Below are positions 11,826-64,000 of a stretch of 64,000 bases of DNA, in pieces. A program made the position numbers and the translations under genes. The notes under the pieces are model-generated. The model was not told the origin of the DNA and searched no databases. It saw nothing but the letters and a program-made list of their open reading frames with translations. The DNA comes from Treponema sp. (lineage in GTDB: Bacteria > Spirochaetota > Spirochaetia > Treponematales > Treponemataceae): NCBI GenBank assembly GCA_017484285.1, contig JAFUTH010000017.1, forward strand, positions 62,001 to 126,000, written 5' to 3'. The first letter of the stretch is position 1. Each line of letters begins with the position of its first letter.

Positions 11826-11860
11826 GGCGCATGCACTTGTATTCTGCGTGCGCCTTTTTT
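11826..11860 (+). terminator. Intrinsic terminator of the LRR lipoprotein gene
   Basis: GGCGCATGCA (11826-11835), a 9-base loop, then TGCGTGCGCC (11845-11854), with one G-T pair, followed by six T. It overlaps the stop codon of the convergent cobQ fusion gene. Confidence 0.8.
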
Positions 11861-14357
11861 ATGAGCGCTTTGATACACCCATAATTTTATAGATTTTTTC
11901 CATGTCGAGGTGCATGCGGAGCGTGTCGGCGAGCAGATTGTACTGGCTCTCTTTGAATTCGCGCAGATTCTTTTCTGGTTCTGCGGAAACACGGCGAGCG
12001 TTGAGAATTTGTGACTTTCCTGTGCGCATGGCAAGAAGCGCAATGAACTTCTCGCAGAATTCCGTCTCGTCAAACAGCCCGTGAATGTAAGTGCCGAACA
12101 CATTCCCCTTCACCGCGCCGTCATTTTTCTCTTCGCCCGAAACAGTGTCCGTAATCCGCGCAAAGAATGACGCTTCCGCCCCCTCAACGAATCGCGTATG
12201 CCCCATGTGGATTTCATAGCCCGAAACAGGAAAGGAATCAAGAGAAGAGAAAAATGACGCGTCATCAGAAAAATCGCAATTTTCCGTTTTCCCTTCGCAG
12301 CACAGCTGCTCGGAGACTCGCTCAAAACCTGTCTCACAGGTTTTGCCGGCAAGCCGTCGCTCCCTATTTCCGTTCCCTGTTCTCACTTTCCCCGAAACAC
12401 GAGTGCGCGTCTTTTGTTCAGAAAATTCGGTTTCAATTGGAAGCAGCCCCAGCGCAGAAACGCACGGTACATTCGCAAACTGCTCCTCAGTTTCCGTTTT
12501 TAAATTTCCGTTTTCTGTTCCATAGATTTTCTCCCCCAACATCTGAAATCCTCCGCAGATGCCGACAACCGGTGTGCCTTTTTTTGCTTCGTCTTGAATG
12601 AGCGCGACAATTCCTGTCTTTTTGAGCCAGTCCAAATCAGCGAGCGTGTTCTTCGTTCCGGGAAGGATAATCGCGTCAGGAGCGCCCAACTCCTCAGCCG
12701 ATGAAGCATAATAAAGGTTTACGCAGTCATATCGGGCGAGCGGATTGAAATCGGTGAAGTTAGAAACGTGCGGCAAACGGACAACCGCCAGCTGAATCTC
12801 GTCGTTTTTCTCGCGAAAACGTGTGAGGGTGTGCAGATTTTCAGACAGAGAATCTTCGTCATCGAGCGAAATATGCATGTACGGTACTGTGCCCACAACG
12901 GGAATGCCGGTTCTTTTCTCAAGCATCTTGATTCCGCTCTCCAAAATCGACGCATCGCCACGAAATTTGTTGATGATAAAGCCTTTTACGCGCGACCGTT
13001 CAGCGGGCGTAAGCAATTCGACTGTTCCGACAAGTTGCGCGAACACGCCGCCTCGGTCTATATCAGCGACAAGCAACACGGGAGCGTCCGCAATTTGTGC
13101 CATCCCCATATTCACGATGTCGTTTTCTTTGAGGTTGATTTCCGCCGGACTTCCCGCCCCTTCAAGCACGATGATGTCGTGTTTTGCAGCAAGCGTCTCA
13201 TACGCACGCGCAATCTGCGGTACGAGCGACTTTTTATACGCAAAATAATCGCGCGCGCTCATGTTCCCTACGACTTCGCCGTTCACAATGACCTGGCTTC
13301 CTGTGTCGCTCGTCGGTTTGAGCAAAATCGGATTCATCAAAACGCTTGGCTCAATGCCCGCCGCTTCTGCCTGCATGACTTGCGCCCGTCCCATCTCCAA
13401 GCCTTCGCTCGTTACAAACGAATTGAGTGCCATGTTCTGTGATTTGAACGGCGCAACCGAAAATCCGTCCTGCCTAAAGATGCGGCATAAGCCCGCCACG
13501 AGAAAGCTCTTTCCCGCGTTTGACATCGTTCCCTGAATCATAAGCGAGGGGTGCGACGGAGCGGGCTCCTCTGGAGCGTTTTTGCAAAATGCGCGTACGA
13601 GTTCCGCATATCCGCTTTCTTCTGCAAAAAAATCGTCGTTCAGTTCGTACAATGCACAAATCTGCTGTTTGCATTTACTCTCATCTTGCGAGAGCTGTGT
13701 AACTTCGTCCGTACCCACGCAGAGAATCCGGTCTGACACTTTGAGCGCGGTATCGACTTCATGAAGCGAGGCAATCACCGTTACGCCCGTTTTGCACAAA
13801 TCGCGGAGAACAGAGAGCATTTCTCGCCGCCAGCGAATGTCGAGGTATGAAGTCGGTTCGTCCAAAACCAAAATCTTTGGGTTTTGGCAAAGCGCACGCG
13901 CAAACAAAATACGCTGGCGCTGCCCATCGCTGACCTTCATAAAATCGTTTTGGGCAAAGTCCTCGGCTTTTACGAGCGCGATTGACTTGTCTATCTCTCG
14001 TTCATCTGCTTGTGAAAGCAATCCGAAATGCCCCGTGTACGGATAGCGAGCTGCCGCAACGACATCTCGGCAGGTTAACAGCTCGGTTTTGACGCTCACG
14101 GTGAGCAACGCCGACATCGCCCGGGAAACTTCTTTGTGTGACAACGAACGCATATCGGTCTTTTCGAGGCATACGACACCGCCGAGTGGTTCAAGTTCCT
14201 TTATCAGTGTTTTGAGTATTGTTGATTTTCCCGAGCCGTTTGCGCCAATGAGCGAGAGGAATTCTCCTTTTTTGACTGAGAACGAAAATGGCGCGTGCAG
14301 GGGATGCCCATAGCCAACGGAAATCTGCTGCGCGACGAGTACGGTATTTTGACTCAT
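11859..14357 (-). CDS. cobQ: ABC transporter ATPase fused to cobyric acid synthase CobQ
   Basis: 832 residues with two full enzymes in one chain. Residues 1-265 are a BtuD/FecE-type ATPase: Walker A GANGSGKST, signature VSDGQRQR, Walker B ILVLDEP, H-loop SLHEVD. Residues about 270-832 are adenosylcobyric acid synthase, which amidates four side chains of adenosylcobyrinic acid diamide: P-loop QGTMSNAGKS, amidotransferase Cys in GICGGFQML, His in YIHGLFD. Between the Cys and His parts the glutaminase domain carries an inserted 28-residue segment (RERRLAGKTCETGF...) encoded by the repeat at 12291-12374. The gene is last in the riboswitch operon and its ATG overlaps the permease stop (ATGA). The fusion couples corrinoid uptake to the amidation step. 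There is no sign of a frameshift joining two genes. Confidence 0.93.
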   Translation of the reverse strand: MSQNTVLVAQQISVGYGHPLHAPFSFSVKKGEFLSLIGANGSGKSTILKTLIKELEPLGGVVCLEKTDMRSLSHKEVSRAMSALLTVSVKTELLTCRDVVAAARYPYTGHFGLLSQADEREIDKSIALVKAEDFAQNDFMKVSDGQRQRILFARALCQNPKILVLDEPTSYLDIRWRREMLSVLRDLCKTGVTVIASLHEVDTALKVSDRILCVGTDEVTQLSQDESKCKQQICALYELNDDFFAEESGYAELVRAFCKNAPEEPAPSHPSLMIQGTMSNAGKSFLVAGLCRIFRQDGFSVAPFKSQNMALNSFVTSEGLEMGRAQVMQAEAAGIEPSVLMNPILLKPTSDTGSQVIVNGEVVGNMSARDYFAYKKSLVPQIARAYETLAAKHDIIVLEGAGSPAEINLKENDIVNMGMAQIADAPVLLVADIDRGGVFAQLVGTVELLTPAERSRVKGFIINKFRGDASILESGIKMLEKRTGIPVVGTVPYMHISLDDEDSLSENLHTLTRFREKNDEIQLAVVRLPHVSNFTDFNPLARYDCVNLYYASSAEELGAPDAIILPGTKNTLADLDWLKKTGIVALIQDEAKKGTPVVGICGGFQMLGEKIYGTENGNLKTETEEQFANVPCVSALGLLPIETEFSEQKTRTRVSGKVRTGNGNRERRLAGKTCETGFERVSEQLCCEGKTENCDFSDDASFFSSLDSFPVSGYEIHMGHTRFVEGAEASFFARITDTVSGEEKNDGAVKGNVFGTYIHGLFDETEFCEKFIALLAMRTGKSQILNARRVSAEPEKNLREFKESQYNLLADTLRMHLDMEKIYKIMGVSKRS
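12291..12374 (-). repeat. 84-bp protein-embedded palindromic repeat, copy 1 (in cobQ)
   Basis: 84 bases, exactly 28 codons, 82 of them identical to the copy at 61694-61777. The centre is a perfect hairpin: AAAACCTGT (12324-12332), CTC, ACAGGTTTT (12336-12344). It sits in the glutaminase domain of CobQ in a loop before the conserved GYEIHMGHT strand. Both copies are read in the same frame and orientation relative to their host genes. Confidence 0.9.
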
Positions 14358-18410: not shown

Positions 18411-18563
18411 GATGTGTGCCTGACTCCAGGCTGGTGTCTGACTCGAAGACGCTCGAAAGAATCCGAATTGCCTTCATACAGTAGCGGCACTGCTGGGGAT
18501 TCCCACCCCATTCCCAGTTGGGCGCGCATTCCTCAAACGAGACTCTACGCGCACCTGAAATCG
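18411..18563 (-). ncRNA. Cobalamin riboswitch
   Basis: Read on the minus strand, the leader of cbiK carries the conserved parts of the adenosylcobalamin aptamer in order: CAGGTGC, GGGAATGGGGTGGGAATCC, the core CCCCAGCAGTGCCGCTACTG, and the B12 box AGTCAGACACCAGCC (18429-18443). The leader runs about 110 more bases to cbiK. It should reduce expression of the whole five-gene operon when cobalamin is plentiful. The ends are approximate. Confidence 0.9.
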
Positions 18564-18569
18564 TTCCCT

Positions 18570-18598
18570 ACTTTATCACAAGGGAAATCGGCTGTCAA
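18570..18598 (-). promoter_or_regulatory. Promoter of the cobalamin operon
   Basis: On the minus strand, TTGACA (18598-18593), 17 bases, then TAAAGT (18575-18570). This places the transcript start near 18563, just ahead of the riboswitch aptamer. Confidence 0.7.
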
Positions 18599-28911: not shown

Positions 28912-31900
28912 TTACCGCTTCCATATAAGAACAGGTTTCATAACGGCTTCGCTTCCACTGTAATTCGTAGTAGTTGTATCCCACATGTAAATGTAACGTT
29001 TATCAACATGGTTCGGAGCGAAAGTAGAAGATTCCTTATTGTAATCGGCTTCATCACTATTTGAGTTATTTAAAGATTCAATGGTGTTGTTAACGACCTT
29101 GATGCTTCCCGATTTTGTAAGGAGACTCTTAAGAACTGTCAGATTGCTTCCATCGGCAACAGTTGTTTTAGAAGTTGTTCCTAAGTACACAGTACCGCCT
29201 GTAAGGTTAAAGCCTTTTACCGTAATCTTTTCATTTGTCGTATCATCAATACTTGCGACAAAGGCACCACTTGCAGAACGTCTCAGATATTTCTTTGTGC
29301 CCGAGTCAAGGTCACCACTAGAGATGTCGGTGATATACGGCACGACGTCCATCTGATAGCTCGGGCTGTGCGTAGTCCCGTCGGTTACTGTATATGCGCC
29401 GCCTGTTGTGTCAGGTGCGCTTACCGTAGAGGCAGTTGAATATTTGTTTCCGTCATATGCAGTTACGACGAGACTTATATCCGTCTCAGCGACATTCGGA
29501 ATCTGAGCAGTATCGATGCTGACTGTCCAATACACTTTGTGTCCTTTTTGGGCAAAATAATACGTATCGTCGTAATGACCAATTGTTTTTTCTGAGCCAG
29601 AGGCATCTTCGCTGATTGTCCATTCATAAGAACCCGTTGAGCTGCTTCCGCTTGTCGCGTTCCAACCTGATGCTGGACTATAGGTTGCCATTGTTATATT
29701 GGCAAAGCCTGTTAATGCAGCTCCATCTTTAGCATTAAGAGTAAACGCAAGGCTCTCTAACGCATGATCATCATACGCCGTACCAGTGAACGTAATCTTT
29801 CCTGAGACTTTCGGGTCACCGTCATATTCGCCGCTTGTTGCACTAGAGTTATAACCTGTCGCATTCTGCCAATCTTTTTCCAACTCAATATGACCGTTTG
29901 CGCTCTTGTTGTCATAGAGTGAGTTTTCGTCTGCGCTTGCCCAGTAGAACGGATTCACGACGACTTTTGGCGGAACTGAGTCCACAAGGTCAATCGTAAA
30001 GTCGTTTACATAAAGAACACACTTCTGGCTTGTTGAGCCTTGTGTTGTTTCTTCGGTGCTATCCCAGAATGTGAATGAACCGCCTTTGCCTGCTCCGTCA
30101 TTTGTTTCTGCAACGCTTGCAACGAGTGCTGTATTAGCGAGCGTGTAACCGTAAAGGTCGGTCGCTGTGTTATCTATCTTGTTGTAGGTAACTTTGCCAA
30201 GTTTGCCATCTTCCACAAGACTTGTAATGCTAGAGTTTTCCGTTCCCGCAGTTCCGCTTGAAGAAGTGATAGGTGTTGTTCCCGAAGCATCTTTTCCGTA
30301 GACCATCATAATATCGCCGTTTCCGCCGACAAGTTCTGCCACGACAGCGAGTTTATTCTTTATGATGAATGAAGAGCCGTAGTTTGCGGTTGCGATTTCT
30401 TGCGCAGCCTTGACCTCTGTCGTTTTGATGTCTTTATCATTAGCATCGTAAAGGTTATAGCCCACGAATTCGTTTTCCGTCCATGTGTCGCTTGAGTTCA
30501 AGTCTGTTCCGAGCCAAACTTTTGCAAGACGAGGAGCATTATTCTCAATTTTTACCGAATATTCCGTGCCCGAAACATTGCCCGCTTTGTCGAACACAAG
30601 CACGACGAGTTTTGCAGGTCCGTCAGGCATATTCGTTGAGTGAATTGACGCATCCCATGTAAAGCCCGTTGATTTTGAGCCGCTCACGCTTTCAGGCATT
30701 AAGTCGCCATCATCGCCGCTTGTGAAAGTGAACGGATTTGCCGAGTCACTTGAAGAATTCTCAGAACCTGTGTTGTCAACGACCTGTGCGTACGGGAAGT
30801 AAGCGGTTGTCTCTGTTTGCTCGGTTACGCCCGTGCTCGTGTCGAATGTGATTGTCGTACCATCGATAGAATCAATCTTTCGCAACACGCCACCGATTTC
30901 AATCAAGCCGCCTTTGCGAATATGTTTGTTATCAGAAAGTGAAGAATCAGCCGTAAAGGTGTAGCCGTCCGTCTCCATTTTTCCTGTGACAGCCAAAGCC
31001 CACAATGTGTAAGTGTTTGTACCTTGCGTGAATGGGCGTTTTGTGAGAATTGCACGTGAAGTATCATCGACTTTAACTTCATTCTCCGTTTTTGAACCAT
31101 ACAGATACGCCTTAGAGTCCTCAGTTCCACTCGTGATGAGCGGGTCAAGAACAGCCTGCCGCTTGTAAGAATTGCCTTCCCGAACATAGTAGAACACGGC
31201 TCGCTCAAATCCAGAGCCAGGTTCGCTCACTTTTCCGCCAAGAATGAATTTGTAGTTTGAATCCACAACGCTGAAATCGTTAGAAAGTGACTCGCTTGTT
31301 TCTGAATCAGAGCCGTTGTAGATTTTGTTGATTGTCGGAGCATCGTTATCAATGTTGAGATTATACGTTGTCGTTACGGTATGTCCGCCACTATCTGTCG
31401 TGTCGGTTACTGTGACAGTGTAAGAAACAGAGTCGCTAGATTTATCAACAGGAATAAAGAGATACTGAGTTTTTGAATTACCGTCATCGCCTGTTGTTAT
31501 AGTTGAAGCAAAATAATCTGTTCCTGCTGTCAGCTGAGTAGAGCCTTTTTTAACCGTGTAGCTTTCAAGTTTAGATTCATCGTACAATTGAACCGTCAAA
31601 TACCAGTCGCCTTTGAGATACATGCCGTCTTCATACACTCGGAGAGCAGAAGCGGTAGAACTTGCCGTGCTGCTGTCTGCATCATTTGAAGGAGAAATTT
31701 CTGTGCTGTACTGTCGGAGCGTTGCTTTCTGCGTCGGAGCAGTTGCATCGACATTGATGTAGTAAATCTGACTCCATGCGCCCACTTTTCCGTTTGAGTT
31801 GATTGCGCACGCACGGATTGCGATTTTGTTTACGCTACCAGATGCAGGATCCATTTCGCCACTAGTGTTGATTGAAAGATTCCAAGACGTCGTTTTGTTC

Positions 31901-34900
31901 GCCTTTACGCCCCACCATTCATTTGCCGCAGAGTCAGAAGTGAATGTAAGCGCAGAATCAAATCCCAAATCAGTCTGTGCGGAATCTTTGTCGTAAACGG
32001 CGTAGCCGTAACCGCCTTCGTTCACACCGCTTGTATTTTTGCTTACCGCAGAAGAAACTTTGCTTGAATTCCATGCAACCGTTCCGTCATCTGCGACAGA
32101 GCCAATCTGCAAGTAAACGGCAGAAACGCTTGCTTCGCCTATAGGAATTTCAGAACTTCCCGTTACGCGGATAGTGCCGCCCAAAATCACGCCGCCTGTC
32201 GCCGTTCCTGTTGAATCGGGATAAGAGATTGTCGTTCGCGGTCGGTCGCCCTCTGGGTTATGCAGGATTGAATGTTTTCCGATTGCAGCATTTCCAAGTT
32301 CGTCAACAGAAAGAATATACACGGGCAATGTGTAAATTCCATCATCAGAAATAGCAGTTGCATATGTGTTGTTGTCGTAATCTTTAATTACATCATCAGC
32401 AATCAAGAACTTGTACTGAGAGGCACTTGCATCATCGGCAAAGCCCTTATCAAGCCATGTTGCACTTTCTATCAAAGTTATGTCGTCTGAAGTTCGCTGA
32501 GTTTCGTTTGGAATGAGCCATTTCGTGCTTGCTGTCGAAGAGCCACCATTGTCAATTGCGCTTCCGTTGAGTGTAATCGTTCCCGTGACTTCTTCCGTTG
32601 ACTTCGGATTTGAGATTGTGATTGTCGGTCCAGTCTGGTCAACAGAGAATGAAGGTGTCGTGTTACCCATCAAGTCCGAGGTATCGTATGCATAGGCAGT
32701 ACAAGAAATAGAACCTGTCGCGAATTGGGAGACATCAACAACATTTGTTGTCCATGGTGCGGGCGAAGCCTCAGTTGTGCCGAGGATACCGTATTTTGAA
32801 GACCAACTCTCTTCATCTGTTGTTTCATCTGTGGAAAGCGTAACTTTTTTCTCGAGTGTGTTGTCGGTACTGTCAATGCCAGTCAAAACAAATTGCATTC
32901 TGTCAATGCCGTTTGCATCGTATGCCTTGAGAATAAATCGCACATACCGTCTAGTTGTGCCACCGAAAACAATTGATGAAAGATTCACACCATCAGAGAT
33001 TTCTTCGCCTGCCGCATCATGGAGCGTATCTTCCTCTGTTCCCTTCGCGTCTTTGTACACTTTCGCTTTGACAGAGACGATTGTCGGTGAGTCGGAATCT
33101 GAGCGGTATACAACACAGACATCGTTGTCGGTTTTGGTGTCGGTCTTAAACTGGAAGTACGGACGCGCAAGAGCAGTCGATGTGCTGCTTTCGGTTATGT
33201 ATGTTGCATTTCCTGTGTAGAAGACTTTGCCAGTGTTGTCTTTGACATAGAAGTAGATTTTATGTGAGCCATCAGTTGTAGTCTCTGGCTCGAAAGTCCA
33301 CTCACCGCTCGTTGGCTTATACTCTGTGAAGTCTCCCGTTTTACCCGAAACCGTTCCATCGTCAGCGACAGTAAACGGGCTATCTGAGACTATGAATGTA
33401 TCGACGACCGCCGTTGCTGTTGCGTCATCGTCTTTAATCGTACCGCTGATTTGCGCATTCGTACCGAATTTGAGAATGTAAGAAGGAGATTCGTTATCTT
33501 TCGCTACATTTGCGAGATTCGTAATCTGTACGACAGGGCGGTCTGAATCTTGTGCGACAATCACTAAAACCGGCTCAGAGTAGCCTTTGTTGCCCGCGAT
33601 GTCTTTTGCAACGGCGCGAAGATAGTACGAGCCATCTGGGAGCGCGGTCGTGTCGAATCCTTTGACCGTAAAACTGTAATTTCCTGTAATCTCATAAGTA
33701 GTGGAGTCAGTTGGAATCGATGTCCACGTGTCATTGTCTACCGTATTGTTTTCCGTTGGCGTTGCGTACTCAATTCCAATGACAGAATCATTTGGCAACA
33801 CGTTTGAGTCGCTTACCGTACCGCTCAGTGAGATTACACCGTTTACCTGTGTGCCCGCCGCCTTCTCCGACGAATCGGCATCGGTGGGGGCAGTGAGTGT
33901 GACTGTCGGCAAAATTTTGTCGAGGGCGAGTGTTCCGATGCTGACAATTTGGCTGTTTCCCGAGCCTGCGTTGTCGGTGACTTCTGCATAGACAGTAAAG
34001 TTGCCCGTTGTATCACTTGCATCAAATACGGCTGCGCTATTGATGGTCAGTTCCCAGTTCTTTTTATTTTTGTCAGAACTATCGTTCGCCGATGTAATCG
34101 TGATTTTCCCGTAGGCACTTTCGGTCGTCGTAATTTTTTTGTCATTTATTGTAACGACAATCGTTCGCACACCCGCGTCAGCATCGGTCGCCGTACCGCT
34201 GAATGAACGATTGCTTTCTGCGTTCGTGTATTGAATTGCGGTTGCATTTGAGATAATAGTTGGAACTTGCGTGTCGACATTAATAGACGCCGAGCGATAA
34301 AGCACCTCTGTCTCAGAACCATTCTCATCAGTCTCCGCAACAGTGACGGAATCGAGAGCGGTATTTCCCACATTATCTTCTGCGACGAGCACAAGATAAT
34401 TACTACCTTCGGTAAAGCCTGAAAGCACGGTGTCAAAGGTTGATTCAACGGTCACGTAATATTTGCCGTTAATCACATCTTGAGAATCTGGCGCAATAAA
34501 ACCGCCCAATGTGCCGTTTGTATTTGTGGTATCGGTATAGAAGACACGCTTTTTCTCAACCGTTGCCAATGGAGCAAAGTAGCCGGTCGGGCTCGACATG
34601 ACTTCGGTAATAATATCATCGCTCGTTTTGTCAGTGGCAAGTTCTTCTGTATAGACCTTGTAGTAAATCATCTTTACGCCACTGCCACTGTCATCAGCAA
34701 AGTTTCCGCGAATAGTAATGGTGCTCGCGTTTCCGTAAGTGCCTGCTGAGTATTTTCCACCGACGTTTTTGTCGAGGTCATTGTCCCATTTAGGATTTGT
34801 AGAATTAGAGTCAATATCATCGTTGTCGTTTGTGCCGACTCGAAAGTAGATGTCCTTGTTCTTTGAGTCAGACAGATGTATGCCTCTCGGAGCTTGCGTA

Positions 34901-37900
34901 TCAAACACAAGTGAAATATTTGCCGCTGCTGTATTGCCTGCCTTATCGGTAACGGTGAGGACTGCCGTTGCCCCGCTCGACCACTCCTTCATGTCGAGTG
35001 ATGCAAAAGCCCATTCAGAGACTTTTTCGGTTTCGGTTCGAGAGATGACATGTGAGCCACTCGTTTCAGTCACACTGAGCGTCACGCTTGCAATGCCGAG
35101 GTTGTCGGTTGCAATGCCGGAGAGCGTAAATACTTGCTTTTTGTTGTTGACGTAATAGACCGTCGTGTTGTCGGTCGTTTTTTTGTATGAATCGCTGAGC
35201 ACATAGCTCTGGATAACTGGATTGGTTGGGTCATAGGTGATAGAAACAAGCGATACGTCAGTGATATTGCCCGCCTTGTCAACAAAGCGCGCATAGATGT
35301 TGCCTGTCTTTGTAACCAAGTCAACCGGAATTGAGACAGCGAATGAGAATATGCCTGTTTCATTGCCCTCACTATCTGTGAGCGCACTAGGCGTGATGGT
35401 CTGAATGTGTGCGTCAGCAATGGTCTCAGCCGTGGCGAGCGCATCTGAGCTGACTTTTTCATAGGGGCGCACGTAGACTGAGTTGATACCACTGCCCTTT
35501 TCTTCGATATGTGCCGTAATATAAATCGCAGCTTTTCCGTTTGTGTAGTAAGTTGAGTCGATTGCCTGTGCATTTGCCGCAGCCGTGCCGACTTTGACGC
35601 TTGTTTCGTCGAGCGTCGGGGCCGCGGTATCAACGACGATGCGCATCGTGCCCAAAGAAGAAGGCGCGTTTTTATCGTTGCCTGTATAAGAAGCCGTTTC
35701 TGGAACAGCGGTGCTGTTCGTTGAGTATGCGATTCCGTTTCCAAAGGTGTCTTTTGCAATAATGACAATATTGTATTTGTCTTCTTCGAGACCCGTAAAA
35801 CTTGCATCCCACGTGTACAAACCGTCACTCTCAGCAGTGCTCCCCGCGGTGATGATAACCGCACCCGTTTTGACTGTAGTGCCAGTCTCAGGAATAAGGA
35901 ACACCTTGAGATATTCATTTGTGGTCGCGAAGTTTGCGTCGGTGACAGTACCCGAGAGCACGAATGCGCTTGAAACATAACCGCTTACGTCAGAGCTGAT
36001 AGCAACACGGGGCGTGATTGTATCGCATGAAATAGTGGCAGTTGACTCTGCGCTGCGGTTATTTTTGTCAGTGGCGGTGAATATAACAGTCTGCTCTTCT
36101 TCAAGCCCTGCCTCCGTCTCTTGCTGCCAGTTGACAGTGACAGCATACTTTTTGCCCGTTTCGGCACCGCTTTCATCAGTGACTGTCTCGCCCTCACCCA
36201 CAACGACATACTGATTGTTTGAAACAAGCGTGTCGATGTTCGTATCGACAACTTCGACGTACACGGTGGTTGCCGTATCGGTTGTGGTGAGCGTTGCCTT
36301 GTCCGCAACCACGCTGTCATCTTTTGCTGCTTTTATCGTGACAACCGGCTTTGTTGCATCGAGCGTGAGCGTTGTTTTTTCGGAATAGATAGCAGTGTTT
36401 CCCGCGTTGTCTTTTGCACCGTAGTAGATGTGAACCGTACCGTCCGCACAATTATTCGTCTCGGCAAATTCTTTGATGGAGACGGTCGCGTTCCAGTTCT
36501 TCTCTCCCTGATTCATCTGAGTCCAGGTAACTGCGTCATAGTCAGTCGGAACAGTGCCGCTCGTTGAGACAACGTAGCCGAATGTGGCGACACCACTATA
36601 GTCATCGGTGACTTCTGCATTAATCGTGAAGTATGTTGACTCATCAAGGAATACAGAAGCGTCTGCCGTCGCATTGCTGATAACCGGTGCATTGCCGTCC
36701 ATCATGAAAGCAAACTTTGTTGCGTTCTGCTGCTCGTATTTGTCAGTAAGCGTAAACAAGATGGTGTAGCTTTCGCTCACTGGAGAATCGAATGTGATGG
36801 TCGCGTTGAACGCCGTGCCACTGTTTGCATAGGTAACGGTTGCAGGCTGCGTTTCAAGCACTTTGCCGTCTGCGTCGATGAACACGGCAGAGACCGTTGT
36901 GCCGTTGTCAAAGCCTTTGCTCGACGGTGAAACGATGCCTTCGATAGCAAATCCGTTCTTTTTGTATCCCGTTGCCGTCGTGATGTTCAATGAAGGCGCG
37001 CCTGAATCCACCGCGATTGCAAAATTGCCAACCACACAGTTTCCGTAAGGATTTGTGCTGTCATCACTCAATTCAGTCACGGCATAGTCCCGTGCTAGAA
37101 CTTTTACGAAATAGACGCCCTCGGTCTCAGGGAGAAGGTAATTGATTGAAGCAGAAGTTTTTCCTGACAAAACCTTGTAAGGATTCGCTCCATACGCCTC
37201 GTTTACATCGCTGTCAGCAAGCAACGCAAAGCCGCTTTCTTGAGTTGAGTCTTCTTTATATAAGCAGATTTCGTATTCTACGATTGAGTCATCATCAGTG
37301 AATGAGAGAGAAAGTTTGTTGTTCGTCGTCGTGCCGAAGAGGTTCGTTTCGATGTTTATGCCGCTCGCGCTCGTGACGCTTTCGTCTGCGTTTCCGAGCG
37401 TGATTTTCGGGCGGTCAGTCTCCTGATAGATGATGAAATTCTTGCCATCATTGCTGTCTTTTGACGAGTACGTGCCCTTGTTGCCCACCGTGTCGACTGC
37501 CGTAACGATGACTTCCGCCTGAATTCGCGCGTCATCGCCCGCCTCTTTGACGTCACGGAAGAACGCGGTGACAAGGCTGCTCGGGAATTCTTTATTGATT
37601 GAGTAAATCTTGCCCAATGAGCCGTCGAGGTCAATCGTCGTCTCGTTTTCTTTTAGGTATTCCTGCAATTCAGCGAGAATTGAATCGTCACTCGTAAGCT
37701 CTTTTTCGAGGTCGGTGCTCGCCCACACATCATAGGTGACTTCCTCAAGGTTCTGCTCGTTGATGCTTCCCTTGATGCTCACGCTGCCGTTGATATAGGT
37801 GTGCGTGTCTTCATTTCCAAAGTAGTCCGAGCCGGAGACTGTCGGTGTAATTGAAGAAATCGTAACTTCTGGTGCCGTCGTGTCGATGTGGACGCTTCGG

Positions 37901-39909
37901 GTCTCAGTGGTTGCCAATCCCGCGCTGCCCTTTGCTTCGACAGCGACCGTGTACATGTACGCAAGAGCCGCCTCTTCCGCCGCGACAGACGCATAGCCCG
38001 CGCATGAAGCCGGCGTGAATGTCCATTTGTTCGTTTTGGTGTCGGCGTCATACGTGCATGAAAGCCCGTCGACCGATGTCCAGCTGTGATTTGAGCTTCC
38101 CGTAATGGTGATCGTAATCGGGCTGCCCACCGTGTCGCCCGTATTTTCGTTGGTGACGGTGAGCGTTGCCGAGAGTGCTTTGAGTGTCATGCCGGAATTG
38201 TTTTCGACAGCAGTACCCTCAAAGACGAGCGTTTCTGCCTTTGAATTTGCGAAGTATGCGAGGCTCGCCGGAGAAGTGAATGTGACTGACGGCGGAACTG
38301 CCGAGATTGAGCCGATAAAGCCGTAGAGCGTACTCTGAGAGAACACGACGTCATCCTTGTCTTTACCCGTGACGATGACTGAATAGTAGGCATCCGCTTC
38401 GATGAAATTCTCGCCCGGAATCTGTGTGCTCACGGTGACCGTAGTGGCGCTCGGGTCGGTGTTGTCGGCATTGTTGCAGATGAGCGTCCAGCCATGCACT
38501 TCGTCAAATGCGCTCGTATCGAACGAGTCGTTTTCTTCCTGTTCTGCTTCAAGCGCCTTGACCGCCGAAACGAGCGCATCGATGTCAGTTGCAAGGCCCG
38601 CTTTTGTGAGAAGTTCGGTATCAGAACCGCCGATTTTTTTAATCCATACTTTGATAGAAGACGGAATGATGTTTACCTGGTCGAGACCCGCGCTCGCAAC
38701 GACGGTAAGCGGCTGCTCGCCCATCGCCTTGTTTGCCGAGGCGAGAATTTCAGTGCCATCGTCGTTGTATGCAATCTGGAAGCTTGAGATGCTGTATGTG
38801 GGATCTGCGTTCGGGTTGAGGGAGAATGAAAGCGAATTATTTGACGCGCTGCTCGTGTCGCGTGCAAGTTCTTTGAGCGCGACGCGGACTTCTTCAACCG
38901 TGGGAGACGTGACGCCCTTGCCCGAGATGTCAGAATCAGCGGCGCTTCCGTTGAGAATAGCGCGGAAATCATTTGCCGTAAGCCCCGCGCCCTTTTTGGT
39001 GCTCATGTAGTCATCGTAAATATCATCATAGAGATAGACCACCGATGTTTCGTTTCCGCCGGCAACACCGCCATCTCCCGGAACAAGGTAGGTCTTCGCT
39101 GAGTCGGCAATCGTAATCGTACATGAATAGACTTTGTTGCCCGTTGCGTCGGCGGTGCCGTAATTGTAAATCTCGTTGTAGCGCGTGTTTGCCGTTGACT
39201 CATCATCCTCGCTGATATAGCGCGCAATGGTGACGCTCGTGCCGCCCGTAGTTGAAATTTCTTCTTCGGTGTATGGCTCGTTGTTCAAGAGCTCGCCGTT
39301 TTCGTCGTACACCAAGATGTCCATTTTTTCGATTGAGTGGTCATCGGCAATCGTACCCTCGACGGTGAACAGCGAGCCGTATTTTGAGAGCGAGCCCGTT
39401 GAGCCGTATGATGAGCGGATTACGCCCGGCTTTGTGATAACAAAAACCGGAGCAGTATTGTCGATGTCAAACTGGCGAGAGTTTTCGCCCGAAGAATGCC
39501 CCGCGTTGTCATACGCGATAACAGAAAGCTGGTATTTACCGTCGGGTAACTGCCAGCCGTTCGTGTATGCGGCGTTTGTGCTATCGTATGCGTTCAACTT
39601 GACCTGCCAAGTGAGCGAGTCTTTGATGTCGGCATAGAACGGCCCGTATTTCATTTTTGTGTCGAGATTTTCGACCGTTACTTGGACTTTGGTGACTGCC
39701 TTGTCGTCAGAGCATGTCCCGTAAAAAATGAATTCGCCCTTGATGGTCGCCGCGGCAGACGGATACTCAATAGAAAGTTTTGGAGCTTCTGTATCAACTG
39801 ATGAGCCTAAGCCTGCGTTATCGCCACACGATGCGAACACAGCAAGCGCACAAAGAGAGAGAAACGTTTTAGAAACACAAAAGAGTTGACTGAAGATACG
39901 GTTTTTCAT
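28912..39909 (-). CDS. Giant multi-domain Ig-like repeat lipoprotein
   Basis: 3665 residues from the ATG at 39909, which follows AAAGGTG and begins a lipoprotein signal (lipobox FASC, Cys about 29). The frame extends to 39969 but that would precede the signal. The body is a long chain of about 25-30 Ig-like beta modules, roughly 95-110 residues each, whose boundaries carry a recurring D(T/N)xAP signature (HIDTTAPEVTI, NIDNDAPTINKI, VDTAAPTLDE). It is Thr/Ser/Asp-rich and nearly Cys-free after the lipobox. It would reach far from the cell as an adhesin or fibre. The reading frame ends at VLIWKR, where a one-base shift would continue into the fragment at 27621-28898, giving about 4,100 residues. 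Confidence 0.9.
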   Translation of the reverse strand: MKNRIFSQLFCVSKTFLSLCALAVFASCGDNAGLGSSVDTEAPKLSIEYPSAAATIKGEFIFYGTCSDDKAVTKVQVTVENLDTKMKYGPFYADIKDSLTWQVKLNAYDSTNAAYTNGWQLPDGKYQLSVIAYDNAGHSSGENSRQFDIDNTAPVFVITKPGVIRSSYGSTGSLSKYGSLFTVEGTIADDHSIEKMDILVYDENGELLNNEPYTEEEISTTGGTSVTIARYISEDDESTANTRYNEIYNYGTADATGNKVYSCTITIADSAKTYLVPGDGGVAGGNETSVVYLYDDIYDDYMSTKKGAGLTANDFRAILNGSAADSDISGKGVTSPTVEEVRVALKELARDTSSASNNSLSFSLNPNADPTYSISSFQIAYNDDGTEILASANKAMGEQPLTVVASAGLDQVNIIPSSIKVWIKKIGGSDTELLTKAGLATDIDALVSAVKALEAEQEENDSFDTSAFDEVHGWTLICNNADNTDPSATTVTVSTQIPGENFIEADAYYSVIVTGKDKDDVVFSQSTLYGFIGSISAVPPSVTFTSPASLAYFANSKAETLVFEGTAVENNSGMTLKALSATLTVTNENTGDTVGSPITITITGSSNHSWTSVDGLSCTYDADTKTNKWTFTPASCAGYASVAAEEAALAYMYTVAVEAKGSAGLATTETRSVHIDTTAPEVTISSITPTVSGSDYFGNEDTHTYINGSVSIKGSINEQNLEEVTYDVWASTDLEKELTSDDSILAELQEYLKENETTIDLDGSLGKIYSINKEFPSSLVTAFFRDVKEAGDDARIQAEVIVTAVDTVGNKGTYSSKDSNDGKNFIIYQETDRPKITLGNADESVTSASGINIETNLFGTTTNNKLSLSFTDDDSIVEYEICLYKEDSTQESGFALLADSDVNEAYGANPYKVLSGKTSASINYLLPETEGVYFVKVLARDYAVTELSDDSTNPYGNCVVGNFAIAVDSGAPSLNITTATGYKKNGFAIEGIVSPSSKGFDNGTTVSAVFIDADGKVLETQPATVTYANSGTAFNATITFDSPVSESYTILFTLTDKYEQQNATKFAFMMDGNAPVISNATADASVFLDESTYFTINAEVTDDYSGVATFGYVVSTSGTVPTDYDAVTWTQMNQGEKNWNATVSIKEFAETNNCADGTVHIYYGAKDNAGNTAIYSEKTTLTLDATKPVVTIKAAKDDSVVADKATLTTTDTATTVYVEVVDTNIDTLVSNNQYVVVGEGETVTDESGAETGKKYAVTVNWQQETEAGLEEEQTVIFTATDKNNRSAESTATISCDTITPRVAISSDVSGYVSSAFVLSGTVTDANFATTNEYLKVFLIPETGTTVKTGAVIITAGSTAESDGLYTWDASFTGLEEDKYNIVIIAKDTFGNGIAYSTNSTAVPETASYTGNDKNAPSSLGTMRIVVDTAAPTLDETSVKVGTAAANAQAIDSTYYTNGKAAIYITAHIEEKGSGINSVYVRPYEKVSSDALATAETIADAHIQTITPSALTDSEGNETGIFSFAVSIPVDLVTKTGNIYARFVDKAGNITDVSLVSITYDPTNPVIQSYVLSDSYKKTTDNTTVYYVNNKKQVFTLSGIATDNLGIASVTLSVTETSGSHVISRTETEKVSEWAFASLDMKEWSSGATAVLTVTDKAGNTAAANISLVFDTQAPRGIHLSDSKNKDIYFRVGTNDNDDIDSNSTNPKWDNDLDKNVGGKYSAGTYGNASTITIRGNFADDSGSGVKMIYYKVYTEELATDKTSDDIITEVMSSPTGYFAPLATVEKKRVFYTDTTNTNGTLGGFIAPDSQDVINGKYYVTVESTFDTVLSGFTEGSNYLVLVAEDNVGNTALDSVTVAETDENGSETEVLYRSASINVDTQVPTIISNATAIQYTNAESNRSFSGTATDADAGVRTIVVTINDKKITTTESAYGKITITSANDSSDKNKKNWELTINSAAVFDASDTTGNFTVYAEVTDNAGSGNSQIVSIGTLALDKILPTVTLTAPTDADSSEKAAGTQVNGVISLSGTVSDSNVLPNDSVIGIEYATPTENNTVDNDTWTSIPTDSTTYEITGNYSFTVKGFDTTALPDGSYYLRAVAKDIAGNKGYSEPVLVIVAQDSDRPVVQITNLANVAKDNESPSYILKFGTNAQISGTIKDDDATATAVVDTFIVSDSPFTVADDGTVSGKTGDFTEYKPTSGEWTFEPETTTDGSHKIYFYVKDNTGKVFYTGNATYITESSTSTALARPYFQFKTDTKTDNDVCVVYRSDSDSPTIVSVKAKVYKDAKGTEEDTLHDAAGEEISDGVNLSSIVFGGTTRRYVRFILKAYDANGIDRMQFVLTGIDSTDNTLEKKVTLSTDETTDEESWSSKYGILGTTEASPAPWTTNVVDVSQFATGSISCTAYAYDTSDLMGNTTPSFSVDQTGPTITISNPKSTEEVTGTITLNGSAIDNGGSSTASTKWLIPNETQRTSDDITLIESATWLDKGFADDASASQYKFLIADDVIKDYDNNTYATAISDDGIYTLPVYILSVDELGNAAIGKHSILHNPEGDRPRTTISYPDSTGTATGGVILGGTIRVTGSSEIPIGEASVSAVYLQIGSVADDGTVAWNSSKVSSAVSKNTSGVNEGGYGYAVYDKDSAQTDLGFDSALTFTSDSAANEWWGVKANKTTSWNLSINTSGEMDPASGSVNKIAIRACAINSNGKVGAWSQIYYINVDATAPTQKATLRQYSTEISPSNDADSSTASSTASALRVYEDGMYLKGDWYLTVQLYDESKLESYTVKKGSTQLTAGTDYFASTITTGDDGNSKTQYLFIPVDKSSDSVSYTVTVTDTTDSGGHTVTTTYNLNIDNDAPTINKIYNGSDSETSESLSNDFSVVDSNYKFILGGKVSEPGSGFERAVFYYVREGNSYKRQAVLDPLITSGTEDSKAYLYGSKTENEVKVDDTSRAILTKRPFTQGTNTYTLWALAVTGKMETDGYTFTADSSLSDNKHIRKGGLIEIGGVLRKIDSIDGTTITFDTSTGVTEQTETTAYFPYAQVVDNTGSENSSSDSANPFTFTSGDDGDLMPESVSGSKSTGFTWDASIHSTNMPDGPAKLVVLVFDKAGNVSGTEYSVKIENNAPRLAKVWLGTDLNSSDTWTENEFVGYNLYDANDKDIKTTEVKAAQEIATANYGSSFIIKNKLAVVAELVGGNGDIMMVYGKDASGTTPITSSSGTAGTENSSITSLVEDGKLGKVTYNKIDNTATDLYGYTLANTALVASVAETNDGAGKGGSFTFWDSTEETTQGSTSQKCVLYVNDFTIDLVDSVPPKVVVNPFYWASADENSLYDNKSANGHIELEKDWQNATGYNSSATSGEYDGDPKVSGKITFTGTAYDDHALESLAFTLNAKDGAALTGFANITMATYSPASGWNATSGSSSTGSYEWTISEDASGSEKTIGHYDDTYYFAQKGHKVYWTVSIDTAQIPNVAETDISLVVTAYDGNKYSTASTVSAPDTTGGAYTVTDGTTHSPSYQMDVVPYITDISSGDLDSGTKKYLRRSASGAFVASIDDTTNEKITVKGFNLTGGTVYLGTTSKTTVADGSNLTVLKSLLTKSGSIKVVNNTIESLNNSNSDEADYNKESSTFAPNHVDKRYIYMWDTTTTNYSGSEAVMKPVLIWKR

Positions 39910-39951
39910 AAAGCACACCTTTTCCATTGTGATGATAGAAACTCTAGGGTA

Positions 39952-39957
39952 ATTATA
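39952..39957 (-). promoter_or_regulatory. -10 element of the giant lipoprotein gene
   Basis: On the minus strand a perfect TATAAT lies 42 bases before the ATG. The corresponding -35 position (TAGCTT at 17-base spacing) is weak. The region upstream is A/T-rich. Confidence 0.5.
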
Positions 39958-40025
39958 CATGAAGGTCATAAAAAAGCTATAATTCTCTTATTTTTTTTCT
40001 TAAAAAAACGCAACAAGCGAAAATC

Positions 40026-60976: not shown

Positions 60977-63900
60977 TTATAACTCTTCCGTAATGTCCAC
61001 TTCCTCAGCAAAGCGCAGATAATACAGCACACAGCGGATTTCGCTTTCGGCGCAGGCGAGCATTTGGCTCACGGCTTTGCGGTAACAGGCGAGTTGAGCA
61101 TAATAAATTTCTGGCTCAATTTTTTGGTTCGTTTTGTAATCGACTATGGTGAATTTGTATTTTGAATCGTCCGCATTCTGATACACCAAGTCAATCTGAC
61201 CGTTTACAATCAGCTCGTCGGCGTAAGTCTCGCTCATCTCTTCACTTTCTGCCGCAACGAAAGATTTTTCTACCACGCTTCGGAACGAGTATTCGCTCTT
61301 TTTCCACGGAGAAGCGAAGGCTTCTTTGTAAAGCGCAGAATCGTCAAATCGGCGTGCCATGTCAGCACACAATTCGCGGATTTTGGCGATTTTCTTTTCG
61401 CGGTTTGTCTCGCCCGCCCATTTTTCCATTCCCACGCCCGAAATGAATTTTTCGTTCATGCCAATCCACTCGCGCCCGCTGATTTTCGGCTCTGCGCCCA
61501 GCACCTTCCCTTCCATGTACGCGTGGGCAATCGTTCCAAAATTCGTGAAATTGAACAGAGGAGCAATTTCATTATCACTTTCCCCGCCCTCATCTTCCAA
61601 ATCAAGCACTTCCCCACTCGGCACAGTGCTCGCGACAATCTTGTTAATCAGCTCATACTCGAAATTAGCAGGCGACTTCCCCTCTTCATTTTCCCCTTCG
61701 CAGCATAGCTGCTCGGAGACTCGCTCAAAACCTGTCTCACAGGTTTTGCCGGCAAGCCGTCGCTCCCTATTTCCATTTTCCACTTTCAATTTACTCGGTG
61801 AAACATACACCTTCGGCGAAAGCGTTTCGCGCTCGACTTCGACCGTCTCCGAATCGGAAAGCTGCGCGATGAAGCTGGATTTCTCGAGCGTTTTTTCGTC
61901 CTCTTTCGCGACGGGCTTGAAGGAATCCTTGTCGTTCACGAAATTGAAGGCGGGATTTTTTACCGTCGTTCCGCCGTTTTCATCTGCTGCGACTCCTTCA
62001 AACAGAATCGGGAGCAAAAGTTGGTAGATGTTCTTGGGGGCGGCAGTTTCAGCAAGCTCGTCTTTTTTGAACTCGCCGTTTTCGCTTCCAATAATATAGA
62101 GTTTTTCTTCGGCGCGCGTAAAGGCAACATACGCAAGGCGGCGCAATTCCGCGCTTTCCTGCCGCTCGTTTTGCTCCTGTGTTAGCGCAAAAAAATAATT
62201 TTTATCGTATTTTTCTGATTCCGCTTTTGAAATCTTTAAAGCGGCTTTCTGATAATCTTGCCAAGCAGGAGTTTTTAGTAAAAATCCAAATTCAGTTGCA
62301 TATCCGATTTTTGCAGGCGGCGGATTACTTTTTCCCGAAACCGCGCACACGAACACGACTTTGAATTCCAAGCCCTTGCTTTTGTGCACCGTGAGAATCT
62401 GCACCGCGTCCTCGGCATCCATAATCACATCGAGACCGTCGAGTTTTTGGTCAGCGTCCTCATAGCTTTTCACCATGTCGATGAAACTCGCAAGACTCTG
62501 CGTTTTGTCCTCGGCAAGCCGCGCCATCTCAAACAAAATGTCGTAGAACGAAGCGTAGAGCGAGACCGTCTTGTTCCACAGTGTCTCGTAGCGGTAGCCA
62601 AGCTCATACCAAATGTAAGAAATCGTTTTTGTGAGTTTTTCGGTTTTGAGCCGCACATTGATGTCGTCGTAGATTGCTTTGAGATTCATGATTTTCGCCG
62701 TCAGGTCGGAATCGTCTGAAATCGCGGCGAGCATTTTTTCGTCAAAAGGGGATTTGTACGGGCTTTCCGTATTCACGAGAATTTTTTCAAGCTCGGCAAA
62801 GGTGAGCGAGCAGAACGGAGAGCGGAGCACTTTCGCGTAGGCATTTTTGTCCTCGGGGTACACGCAGAGTTTCAAGAGAGAGATGATGTCGTTAATCGGT
62901 CCGTCGGAGAAAAATCCCTTGTAGACTTCGGTTGAATAGGGAATTCCCGCGCCAAGAAGCACATTTTCGTAGGCGGCGGTGGGCGTTGCCGTGCGGAAGA
63001 GGAGCGCAATGTCGCGGTAGTGGTATTTTTGATTTCCGCCTTTGTCCGTTTCTTCGAGCAGTTTTTTGATTTCACTGGCGACAAAACTTGCCTCGCACTC
63101 GTAGACTTTTCGGTCAGCTTCAGGATTTTCGCTTTCGGCGCGGGCATTTTCTTCGCGTGGAAGCGGAATCTGATTTTCAGCCTCTTCGTCTTTTTTGGGA
63201 TAGAGGGCGAGCGTGATTTTCTTTTCGGAGAAGTCGCAGTCTTTTAATTTGAACTCAGGCACTTCGACCCGCTTGTAATCCGCTTCAAAATCGGGGATTC
63301 CCTCGGCTTCTGTTAGACCGCTTTCGTCCGTGTGCGATGAGAATTTTTCTTTGGTCATGAAAAGTGCCGGGAGCGCGTCGTTCACTTTTTCGCCGTTCGG
63401 GTAATCGTAGCCGCCAAAAATCGTATTGAAACCGCGAATCAGCTCTGGCTCGGAGCGGTAATTCGTTTTGAGCTGAATTTCATTCTGAATCGAAGAAGAA
63501 AGATTTCGGAACACGGAGACATCAGCCCCACGGAATCGGTAAATGCTCTGCTTGTCATCACCGACGAAGAACAACTTATGCGTGTCGAGCCGTTCCAAAA
63601 GGTCAGAATCCGAAAGCTTTGGGATACTGTAGTTTCCATTTTCGTCATATTTTTCGTGCGCGTCAGAAAGAATCAAAAGCACATCGCACTGAAGCTGATT
63701 GTCGTCCTGAAATTCGTCAATCATAATCGCGTCGAATTTCTGCTGCTCAATGTGGCGGATTTCCTCATGCTCGCGGAGCGAAGCAAAGGCAAGTTCGCTC
63801 ACATCGCCGAACGAAAGCAAGCCCGAACTGCGCTTGGTGCGAATCACTTCGTTCTGAAAAAGCGCGAGATGAGCGAAAATCTTTTTGATGAGCGCAAAGC

Positions 63901-64000
63901 CCGCGATTGAATTGGCGAGCAAATAGAGCCGTTCGAGGAGCGGAAGCAGATTTTTTTTCGTCTGCTTGTAATTCGCATCCCCCACCCGTGAAAAATTCGT
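60977..64000 (-). CDS. UvrD-type helicase-nuclease, AddA/RecB-like, N-terminus outside the window
   Basis: The frame is open through the right edge, so about 1,007 C-terminal residues are seen and the Walker A motif is missing. Helicase motifs present: II IMIDEFQDD, III VGDDKQSIYRFRGAD, IV-like KTNYRSEPELI, V LTVHKSKGLEFKVVFV, VI AYVAFTRAEEKLYI. The end carries a RecB/AddA-type nuclease motif (FTIVDYKTNQ). It would process double-strand breaks for recombination, probably with an AddB-like partner outside the window. A 28-residue insertion (RERRLAGKTCETGF...) encoded by the repeat at 61694-61777 sits between the helicase and nuclease parts. The partial view prevents deciding between AddA and RecB. 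Confidence 0.88.
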   Translation of the reverse strand, partial: TNFSRVGDANYKQTKKNLLPLLERLYLLANSIAGFALIKKIFAHLALFQNEVIRTKRSSGLLSFGDVSELAFASLREHEEIRHIEQQKFDAIMIDEFQDDNQLQCDVLLILSDAHEKYDENGNYSIPKLSDSDLLERLDTHKLFFVGDDKQSIYRFRGADVSVFRNLSSSIQNEIQLKTNYRSEPELIRGFNTIFGGYDYPNGEKVNDALPALFMTKEKFSSHTDESGLTEAEGIPDFEADYKRVEVPEFKLKDCDFSEKKITLALYPKKDEEAENQIPLPREENARAESENPEADRKVYECEASFVASEIKKLLEETDKGGNQKYHYRDIALLFRTATPTAAYENVLLGAGIPYSTEVYKGFFSDGPINDIISLLKLCVYPEDKNAYAKVLRSPFCSLTFAELEKILVNTESPYKSPFDEKMLAAISDDSDLTAKIMNLKAIYDDINVRLKTEKLTKTISYIWYELGYRYETLWNKTVSLYASFYDILFEMARLAEDKTQSLASFIDMVKSYEDADQKLDGLDVIMDAEDAVQILTVHKSKGLEFKVVFVCAVSGKSNPPPAKIGYATEFGFLLKTPAWQDYQKAALKISKAESEKYDKNYFFALTQEQNERQESAELRRLAYVAFTRAEEKLYIIGSENGEFKKDELAETAAPKNIYQLLLPILFEGVAADENGGTTVKNPAFNFVNDKDSFKPVAKEDEKTLEKSSFIAQLSDSETVEVERETLSPKVYVSPSKLKVENGNRERRLAGKTCETGFERVSEQLCCEGENEEGKSPANFEYELINKIVASTVPSGEVLDLEDEGGESDNEIAPLFNFTNFGTIAHAYMEGKVLGAEPKISGREWIGMNEKFISGVGMEKWAGETNREKKIAKIRELCADMARRFDDSALYKEAFASPWKKSEYSFRSVVEKSFVAAESEEMSETYADELIVNGQIDLVYQNADDSKYKFTIVDYKTNQKIEPEIYYAQLACYRKAVSQMLACAESEIRCVLYYLRFAEEVDITEEL
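61694..61777 (-). repeat. 84-bp protein-embedded palindromic repeat, copy 2 (in the helicase gene)
   Basis: Identical to the cobQ copy at 82 of 84 positions, same orientation and frame relative to its host gene. The central hairpin is AAAACCTGT (61727-61735), CTC, ACAGGTTTT (61739-61747). It adds 28 residues in the linker ahead of the nuclease domain. Confidence 0.9.

Follow-up and report, generated by a model that had tools for sequence, protein, structure and literature searches.

A probable mobile three-hairpin DNA element inserted within protein genes of Treponema

Two near-identical palindromic sequences, each in frame within a protein-coding gene, occur in a 64,000-nt stretch of DNA from Treponema sp. 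(GCA_017484285.1, contig JAFUTH010000017.1, positions 62,001-126,000 of the forward strand), hereafter the window. Comparison with copies elsewhere suggests that they belong to a family of DNA elements of 75-80 bp with three predicted hairpins, found across the genus as near-clean insertions between genes, within them and in copies of tRNAs, which probably spreads by transposition of single-stranded DNA with an enzyme supplied from elsewhere. The source assembly is a draft of 26 contigs, 95.4% complete.

The pair was recorded in an initial annotation as an 84-bp, 28-codon unit (12291-12374 and 61694-61777). The two sequences do differ at only 2 of 84 positions, and both lie in frame on the minus strand, although the genes that hold them, encoding a CobQ protein and a UvrD/RecB-type helicase-nuclease (Table 1), are mutually unrelated. 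A 30-base core, allowing up to three mismatches, matches twice in the window and never in 100 dinucleotide shuffles, which rules out chance for the pair. The shared 84 bp is real, but comparison with other copies confines the element proper to a core of 75 bp (74/75 identical); the rest of the shared sequence comes from a coding mini-repeat, rich in GGAAA and giving the peptide ENG[KN], that both sites contain. Both insertions occupy a loop or linker, as had been proposed: the helicase copy falls between UvrD_C, which stops at residue 634, and PDDEXK_1, which starts at 815, and the CobQ copy sits in a variable-length loop within the GATase_3 match.

Presence and Absence of the Element at Orthologous Sites

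The window CobQ protein (P0001) has a relative, P0003, that is 94% identical and free of the insert, reading KVRT-ENGKL-RTENCDF where the window reads KVRTGNGN-RERRLAGKTCETGFERVSEQLCCEG-KTENCDF. A second relative, P0004, is only 71% identical yet carries the identical 25 residues at the same position. P0004 is the sole carrier among the 120 homologues listed of 7994, and 10 of 10 readable CobQ genes of the same genus, from 15 loci besides that of the source genome, lack the insert. Among the 120 helicase homologues listed, two carry the peptide: P0123, which is the window's own protein, and P0124 (97% identical). The presence or absence of the insert between close CobQ relatives supports mobility.

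Empty sites were also sought in DNA, by searching the joined flanks of 18 copies from the source genome against 200 genomes. They could be aligned at five loci (L003, L007, L020, L052, and L053), while at L008 and L051 matches span both empty sites, unaligned. At L007 the filled allele shows an exact net gain of 75 bp at TACT^GGAAC relative to one empty allele; by our reading its host gene is a remnant with a stop upstream. At L020 the net gain is 81 bp, with 1 bp lost and the frame kept, such that WYQ-[28 residues]-WGK replaces the WYQEWGK of ten empty alleles. The insertion at L053 appears to split a gene and that at L052 to alter a C-terminus. L003 adjoins the edge of another repeat, and GGTAG- or GGAAG-like sequences flank some copies. 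No clear target duplication is seen at the five aligned sites, where boundaries are uncertain by 1-3 bases. Together with the CobQ comparison, these near-clean insertions support the original suggestion of a mobile palindrome that spreads inside coding sequence.

Copy Number and Distribution

Only two copies had been noted in the window, but the source genome as a whole yields 26 BLAST matches. A covariance model built from 23 copies gives 41 matches at a threshold of E ≤ 1e-4 and one further at 0.03. In a set of 59 genomes, matches were found in 20 of 36 from the same genus (source genome counted) and in none of 23 from other genera of the order. A wider draw of 196 genomes from the genus, scored at the same threshold with stricter filters and a capped number of candidates, has matches in at least 108. 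When public genomes were searched with a strict pattern, at least 106 loci were recovered. The 80 titles among the matches listed are all Treponema or Spirochaetaceae and include the complete T. ruminis genome, and the sources stated are rumen, other fore-stomach or faeces. The same pattern had no match in viral contigs, although it is strict and would miss variants, and plasmid and phage collections were not searched. Rfam 15 returned nothing on the element, either for the window at gathering scores or for three loci at E ≤ 5. Two contigs of the source assembly, C10 and C15 (L014 and L004), begin with 240 bases of tandem element arrays spaced at about 80 bp, and such arrays therefore probably broke the assembly.

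Anatomy and Base Pairing

Most distinct copies measure 75-81 bp, with a few shorter or longer; the predicted structure consists of three hairpins and, in addition, an outer stem. Read on the sense strand, the order is TAGGGAGC, a variable first hairpin (H1), a second (H2) of the form AAAAnnnnn-GAG-nnnnnTTTT, the block GCGAGTCTC, and a third (H3) whose apex is mostly CTRTG. The perfect 9-bp hairpin originally noted at the centre of the window copy is present, with a tenth C-G pair, and is H2, the middle of the three. The loop GAG and the CTRTG apex are kept in most copies.

Across 58 distinct copies, in an alignment fitted to the predicted structure, 97.2% of cells pair, and both sides have changed in 18 of the 23 pairs. 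The covariation score of 0.490 compares with 0.155 ± 0.009 in shuffles (0/500 as high) and at most 0.086 in slid controls. When 23 copies were aligned with MAFFT, the score was 0.395 against 0.145 (0/500 shuffles, slid controls ≤0.121), with a structure that was partly hand-drawn from those same 23 sequences. The outer stem is backed by TAGGGAAC copies carrying GTGAG, and its pair 7-73 is GC in 44 copies, AU in six, GU in six and unpaired in one. Folded alone as RNA, the window copy exceeds shuffles in stability only modestly, with a z of -2.26 (2/200 shuffles as stable) and, for the other strand, one of -2.27 (6/200).

Within the outer stem, H1 and H2, only 22 of 2604 standard pairs (0.8%) are G-T, as opposed to 37 of 473 (7.8%) in 22 tRNAs from the same loci; 11 A-C and 48 other non-pairs also occur there. 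The count was restricted in this way because one over all stems (26 G-T vs. 62 A-C) is dominated by register errors in H3. The scarcity of G-T pairs favours a DNA hairpin. The pairing would reflect a DNA hairpin that is kept, or hairpins remade by a DNA process, more than RNA, and the recency of the copies could contribute.

Possible Exchange of Whole Stems

H2 could be parsed in 147 of 171 distinct copies (24 were dropped), and 136 of these have a perfect 6-bp stem, in 31 different versions. Most of the eight commonest stems are found combined with two or more H1 families and H3 types; ATGCTC hardly is. Twelve pairs of sites have similar flanks. One of them, L123 and L169, differs mainly by a change of the whole H2 stem, and another, L165 and L199, by H1 and H2; in the other pairs the two sites match completely or almost so, and some belong to tandem arrays. 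The observation of stem swapping thus comes from a handful of site pairs. A whole-stem swap at sites that look orthologous suggests that hairpins are maintained by a process acting on DNA, with no selection on the RNA. We tentatively propose that the element is a mosaic of interchangeable hairpin cassettes whose stems are swapped whole at the DNA level, the fold being kept while the letters change, inside protein genes.

Could the folding then be a by-product, in which template switching or gene conversion makes stems and swaps them, the hairpin is not read by any enzyme, and copies pass between strains mainly by homologous recombination and gene transfer? The block replacement of H2 with the rest almost unchanged, and the varied partners of most common stems, would both fit, and the insert shared by P0004 and P0001 sits in a stretch more similar than average, as might be expected of a recombination tract. 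However, near-clean insertions facing empty DNA alleles need an insertion step beyond recombination between copies, and the conserved unpaired blocks (TAGGGAGC and GAGTCTC) are left unexplained. We regard this explanation as unlikely.

Placement Relative to Genes

Placement was scored for 176 copies using crude open reading frame (ORF) calls. Eighty-five are intergenic, 53 are wholly contained in an ORF (22 sense, 31 antisense) and 38 extend over the end of one; the last comprise 26 at 3′ ends (23 sense, 3 antisense) and 12 at 5′ ends (9 sense, 3 antisense). In 12 of the 176, an ORF with a minimum of 90 codons ends on the TAG of the element itself. GTAG stands at the 5′ foot in 104 of 166 copies, and position -1 is G in 108 of 166, the background being 0.32.

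Ten host ORFs were run against Pfam and families were found in eight, including methionine-synthase-, RimO-, CarB- and GltB-type domains (Table 1). In all eight it sits in a single open frame, inside a domain or between domains or, at L006, at a domain edge. The translations vary: the window copies give RERRLAGKTCETGFERVSEQLCCEG, the L020 copy DRERHCVAVQKQSGGLFLASLRAAMLRR, and the antisense copies of L003 and L006 PSQHSCSETRSKPVSQVL. Five of the six frames of the cobQ core are open, and the element has few stops in most frames. A common frame and orientation, as first described, thus holds for the window pair but not for the family, whose other members use different frames and include readings from the opposite strand. 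Because copies are read in several frames and on both strands, it is the DNA and not a peptide that spreads.

Copies also occur within other palindromes (GGGGCGTTGCGGGG^CCCCGCAG), in partial copies of tRNA-Met and tRNA-Val, and in tandem. Often the element breaks up a larger palindrome (GGGGCGTTGCGGGG ... CCCCGCAGAGGGGGTAGCGG) at its tip, as at L113, L077, L152, L018 and other loci. Partial, sometimes tandem copies of tRNA ends carry it at L015, L058, L136 and L153 (tRNA-Met) and at L207 (tRNA-Val, by eye), and the last of these has two insertions that can be compared with an intact tRNA alongside.

The excess of sense copies over ORF 3′ ends could instead point to an RNA element, a terminator or mRNA stabilizer kept for its function, with the genic copies as by-products. 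The TAG stops and the conserved loop GAG and CTRTG apex are in keeping with such a role. Against it stand the many copies inside ORFs, over half of them antisense, G-T pairs some ninefold rarer than in tRNAs of the same loci, unlike an RNA-kept structure, and the lack of an Rfam match; moreover, a 5′-terminal TAG alone would create such a bias in a mobile element. We consider a 3′-end RNA function quite unlikely. A miniature inverted-repeat transposable element of a cut-and-paste (DDE) transposon would likewise be short, multi-copy, non-coding and palindromic, but the ends of the element do not resemble inverted repeats of each other (alignment, by eye) and the five aligned empty sites lack a clear target duplication, making this very improbable. 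An ancestral or functional peptide motif common to CobQ and the helicase would account for the same residues in the same frame in the window, but is refuted as an ancestral part of either protein by the same-genus CobQ genes without the insert and the rarity of the peptide among listed homologues, and, given the different frames and strand in which other copies are read, it merits virtually no credence.

Similarity to Known Palindromic Repeats

The comparisons that follow draw on parts of the cited articles. The GTAG-tagged REPs of REP/RAYT systems are described as one palindrome of 20-40 bp with GTAG at one foot, whose TAG serves as stop of flanking ORFs, and which occur in tandem groups and in ORFs that include UvrD/RecBCD-type repair genes, grouped repeats encoding 20-30 residues (Di Nocera et al., 2013; PMC3733652). 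The Treponema element shares the TAG stops, the tandem groups, the 20-30 encoded residues and the copies in ORFs, one of them a UvrD/RecB-type gene; GTAG stands at one foot in 104 of 166 copies, but the two window copies have ATAG. It differs in size, at about 75-80 bp, and in having three hairpins and an outer stem in place of a single stem. A RAYT gene flanked by repeats is also characteristic of those systems, whereas Y1 was not found in this assembly and no fetched Y1 locus is flanked by the element. Spirochaetes are not among the phyla that the consulted part of the article gives for GTAG repeats (PMC3733652).

CGTC-tagged REPs, in contrast, are reported in Spirochaetes, without a dedicated transposase, and consist of a single stem of 8-9 bp and a CGTC tag (PMC3733652). 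The phylum and the missing dedicated transposase are points of likeness; the single stem and the tag are not, as our element starts with TAGGGAGC. The statement in the initial annotation that no such family was known in spirochaetes therefore needs amending to include the CGTC-tagged REPs, although these are a different repeat. Rickettsia palindromic elements (RPEs) are about 150 bp long and each encode a conserved peptide (PMC10969869). They had been put forward as the model, and a short palindromic element in frame in many unrelated genes is indeed common to both. The conserved peptide is not, since that of the Treponema element varies by frame and strand; the phylum is another, the comparison is one of descriptions and not of sequences, and membership of the RPE family is not shown.

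Two further kinds of sequence were considered. REPINs join two REPs in a larger fold, and integron attC sites, considered here as general background, have R′ and R″ boxes (GTTRRRY and RYYYAAC) and form a cassette array with an integrase. REPINs are described as miniature mobile palindromic DNA with within-genome evolution (PMC3116915), a likeness to the present element; unlike them, it has three non-identical hairpins and an outer stem, with modules that apparently recombine. No description of it, or of in-frame palindromes in Treponema, was found among the top-ranked literature results, a search that did not cover subscription journals and preprints. As far as these sources go, the element works like RPEs; its closest resemblance is to GTAG-tagged REPs, which are smaller and have a single stem.

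How the Element May Move

If the element transposes as single-stranded DNA, its folded strand would be what an enzyme recognizes, and that enzyme may be of the Y1/IS200-RAYT kind. We hold a Y1 mechanism with moderate confidence, since the anatomy fits: a folded strand, a GTAG foot, no clear duplication, and insertion in palindromes. The transposase would be supplied from elsewhere in the genome or the population; alternatively, a trans-acting enzyme may have been lost or missed in the draft, or another recombinase may be at work. In-frame copies would persist where they fall in loops or linkers, bring no in-frame stop and have a net length that is a multiple of three, other genic insertions being mostly lost. 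Tandem copies and module swaps could arise via recombination or copying between elements.

Y1 genes were found in 4 of 22 genomes of the same genus and, in a high-copy set with the source genome included, in 12 of 23, several of them mere fragments. At five of 13 Y1 loci (L218, L260, L261, L264, and L265) the covariance model gives a weak but full-length match (10.6-14.7 bits, E 0.05-0.48) on the downstream side of the Y1 gene and close to or at the right end; these are copies of related insertion sequences and hence not independent, and they constitute a weak lead toward an IS200-type enzyme. At L263 (G093:C1:2820317-2821453), two near-identical IS200-type elements stand in direct tandem.

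Several observations weigh against this account of the element. Y1_Tnp (PF01797) was not found in the draft assembly, and Y1 genes occur in 12 of 27 genomes with seven or more copies as against 4 of 17 with three or fewer (p = 0.21). Among the Y1 loci retrieved, L261 is the one with a clear copy, which stands about 740 bp away from the left end of the IS200 and does not flank it; the other matches are weak, and by eye the IS200 ends in L218, L261 and L263 do not resemble the element. No recurrent partner transposase was seen beside 106 loci (725 ORFs compared all-against-all, judged by eye with no family search); 16 neighbor clusters were judged, each from the start of one member, and the largest resembles ABC ATPases. 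Both window copies are preceded by A, giving ATAG and not GTAG, and the empty state of the window CobQ site is seen as protein only and not as DNA. In addition, the window copy folded alone does not form H1, its best fold pairing H1 bases with a downstream segment, so the three-hairpin structure rests on the alignment.

Two other candidate drivers were rejected. IS110 (PF02371), in 10 of 25 genomes, and reverse transcriptase (PF00078), in 12 of 25, both lack a match in this assembly and are scattered over high- and zero-copy genomes.

Host Genes and Other Features of the Window

P0001 has ABC_tran at 24-170, CbiA at 272-494 and GATase_3 at 523-766, a layout of domains found in many near homologues of similar length. 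The CobQ homologues P0034, P0043, P0046, P0048, and P0054 hold long in-frame expansions of another mini-repeat (KLKVESGKWKDENGK-like) in the same loop, which thus appears to be a hot spot for several repeats. The helicase ORF has 1002 residues in the window, and the database protein P0123 has 1314. Its homologues P0126 and P0128 hold a different in-frame repeat peptide, SLPLAPAN[KE]LSSATPSA, with a related form in P0125, which is likely the translation of a second palindromic DNA repeat. The window also contains a cobalamin riboswitch (Rfam RF00174) at 18412-18573 (minus strand), alongside the CobQ gene, and an ORF of 3685 residues at 28912-39969 (minus strand) without a Pfam match at 1e-5.

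Table 1. Copies of the element, their surroundings in the window, and host ORFs at other loci. Positions are window coordinates or, for loci, residues of the host ORF occupied by the element.
Feature	Position	Strand	Remarks
Element core (75 bp) in frame in cobQ, TAGGGAGC ... GCGAAGG	12292..12366	minus	BLAST; model R1 match C4:74288-74366 = window 12288-12366
Second 75-bp copy, in frame in UvrD/RecB-type helicase-nuclease gene	61695..61769	minus	BLAST; model R1 match C4:123691-123769 = window 61691-61769
Middle hairpin H2, C-AAAACCTGT-GAG-ACAGGTTTT-G	12323..12345	minus	Stem covaries across the family
Flank 5′ of the element, GGGAACGGAAA	12367..12380	minus	Piece of the ENG[KN] mini-repeat that also flanks the helicase copy
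Host gene 1 (P0001), ABC-ATPase fused to CobQ (cobyric acid synthase)	11859..14357	minus	832 aa; insert at residues 665-689
Host gene 2 (P0002), UvrD/RecB-type helicase with PDDEXK nuclease domain	60977..63985	minus	Insert at residues 740-764
L003	500-526	antisense	S-methyl_trans, Pterin_bind, B12-binding
L054	229-253	antisense	UPF0004, Radical_SAM, TRAM; inside Radical_SAM match
L075	396-421	sense	CPSase and MGS domains
L209	253-280	antisense	Glutamate synthase domains; inside Glu_syn_central
L141	478-503	sense	Exporter
L005	497-523	antisense	ABC ATPase
L006		antisense	Element at domain edge
L008		sense	Apparent fused permease and ATPase
L020		sense	No Pfam family at 1e-5
L025		antisense	No Pfam family at 1e-5

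Significance

In-frame palindromic insertions are known above all from Rickettsia. The element described here adds a genus-wide and still polymorphic family in gut spirochaetes, with many copies and with empty sites at the DNA level. If stems are indeed swapped whole, such mosaicism would represent a way for mobile elements to evolve that the portions of the literature compared do not describe for REPs or RPEs. The family also makes two questions testable: which enzyme moves REP- and RPE-like elements that have no linked transposase, and how conserved enzymes tolerate in-frame palindromic insertions.

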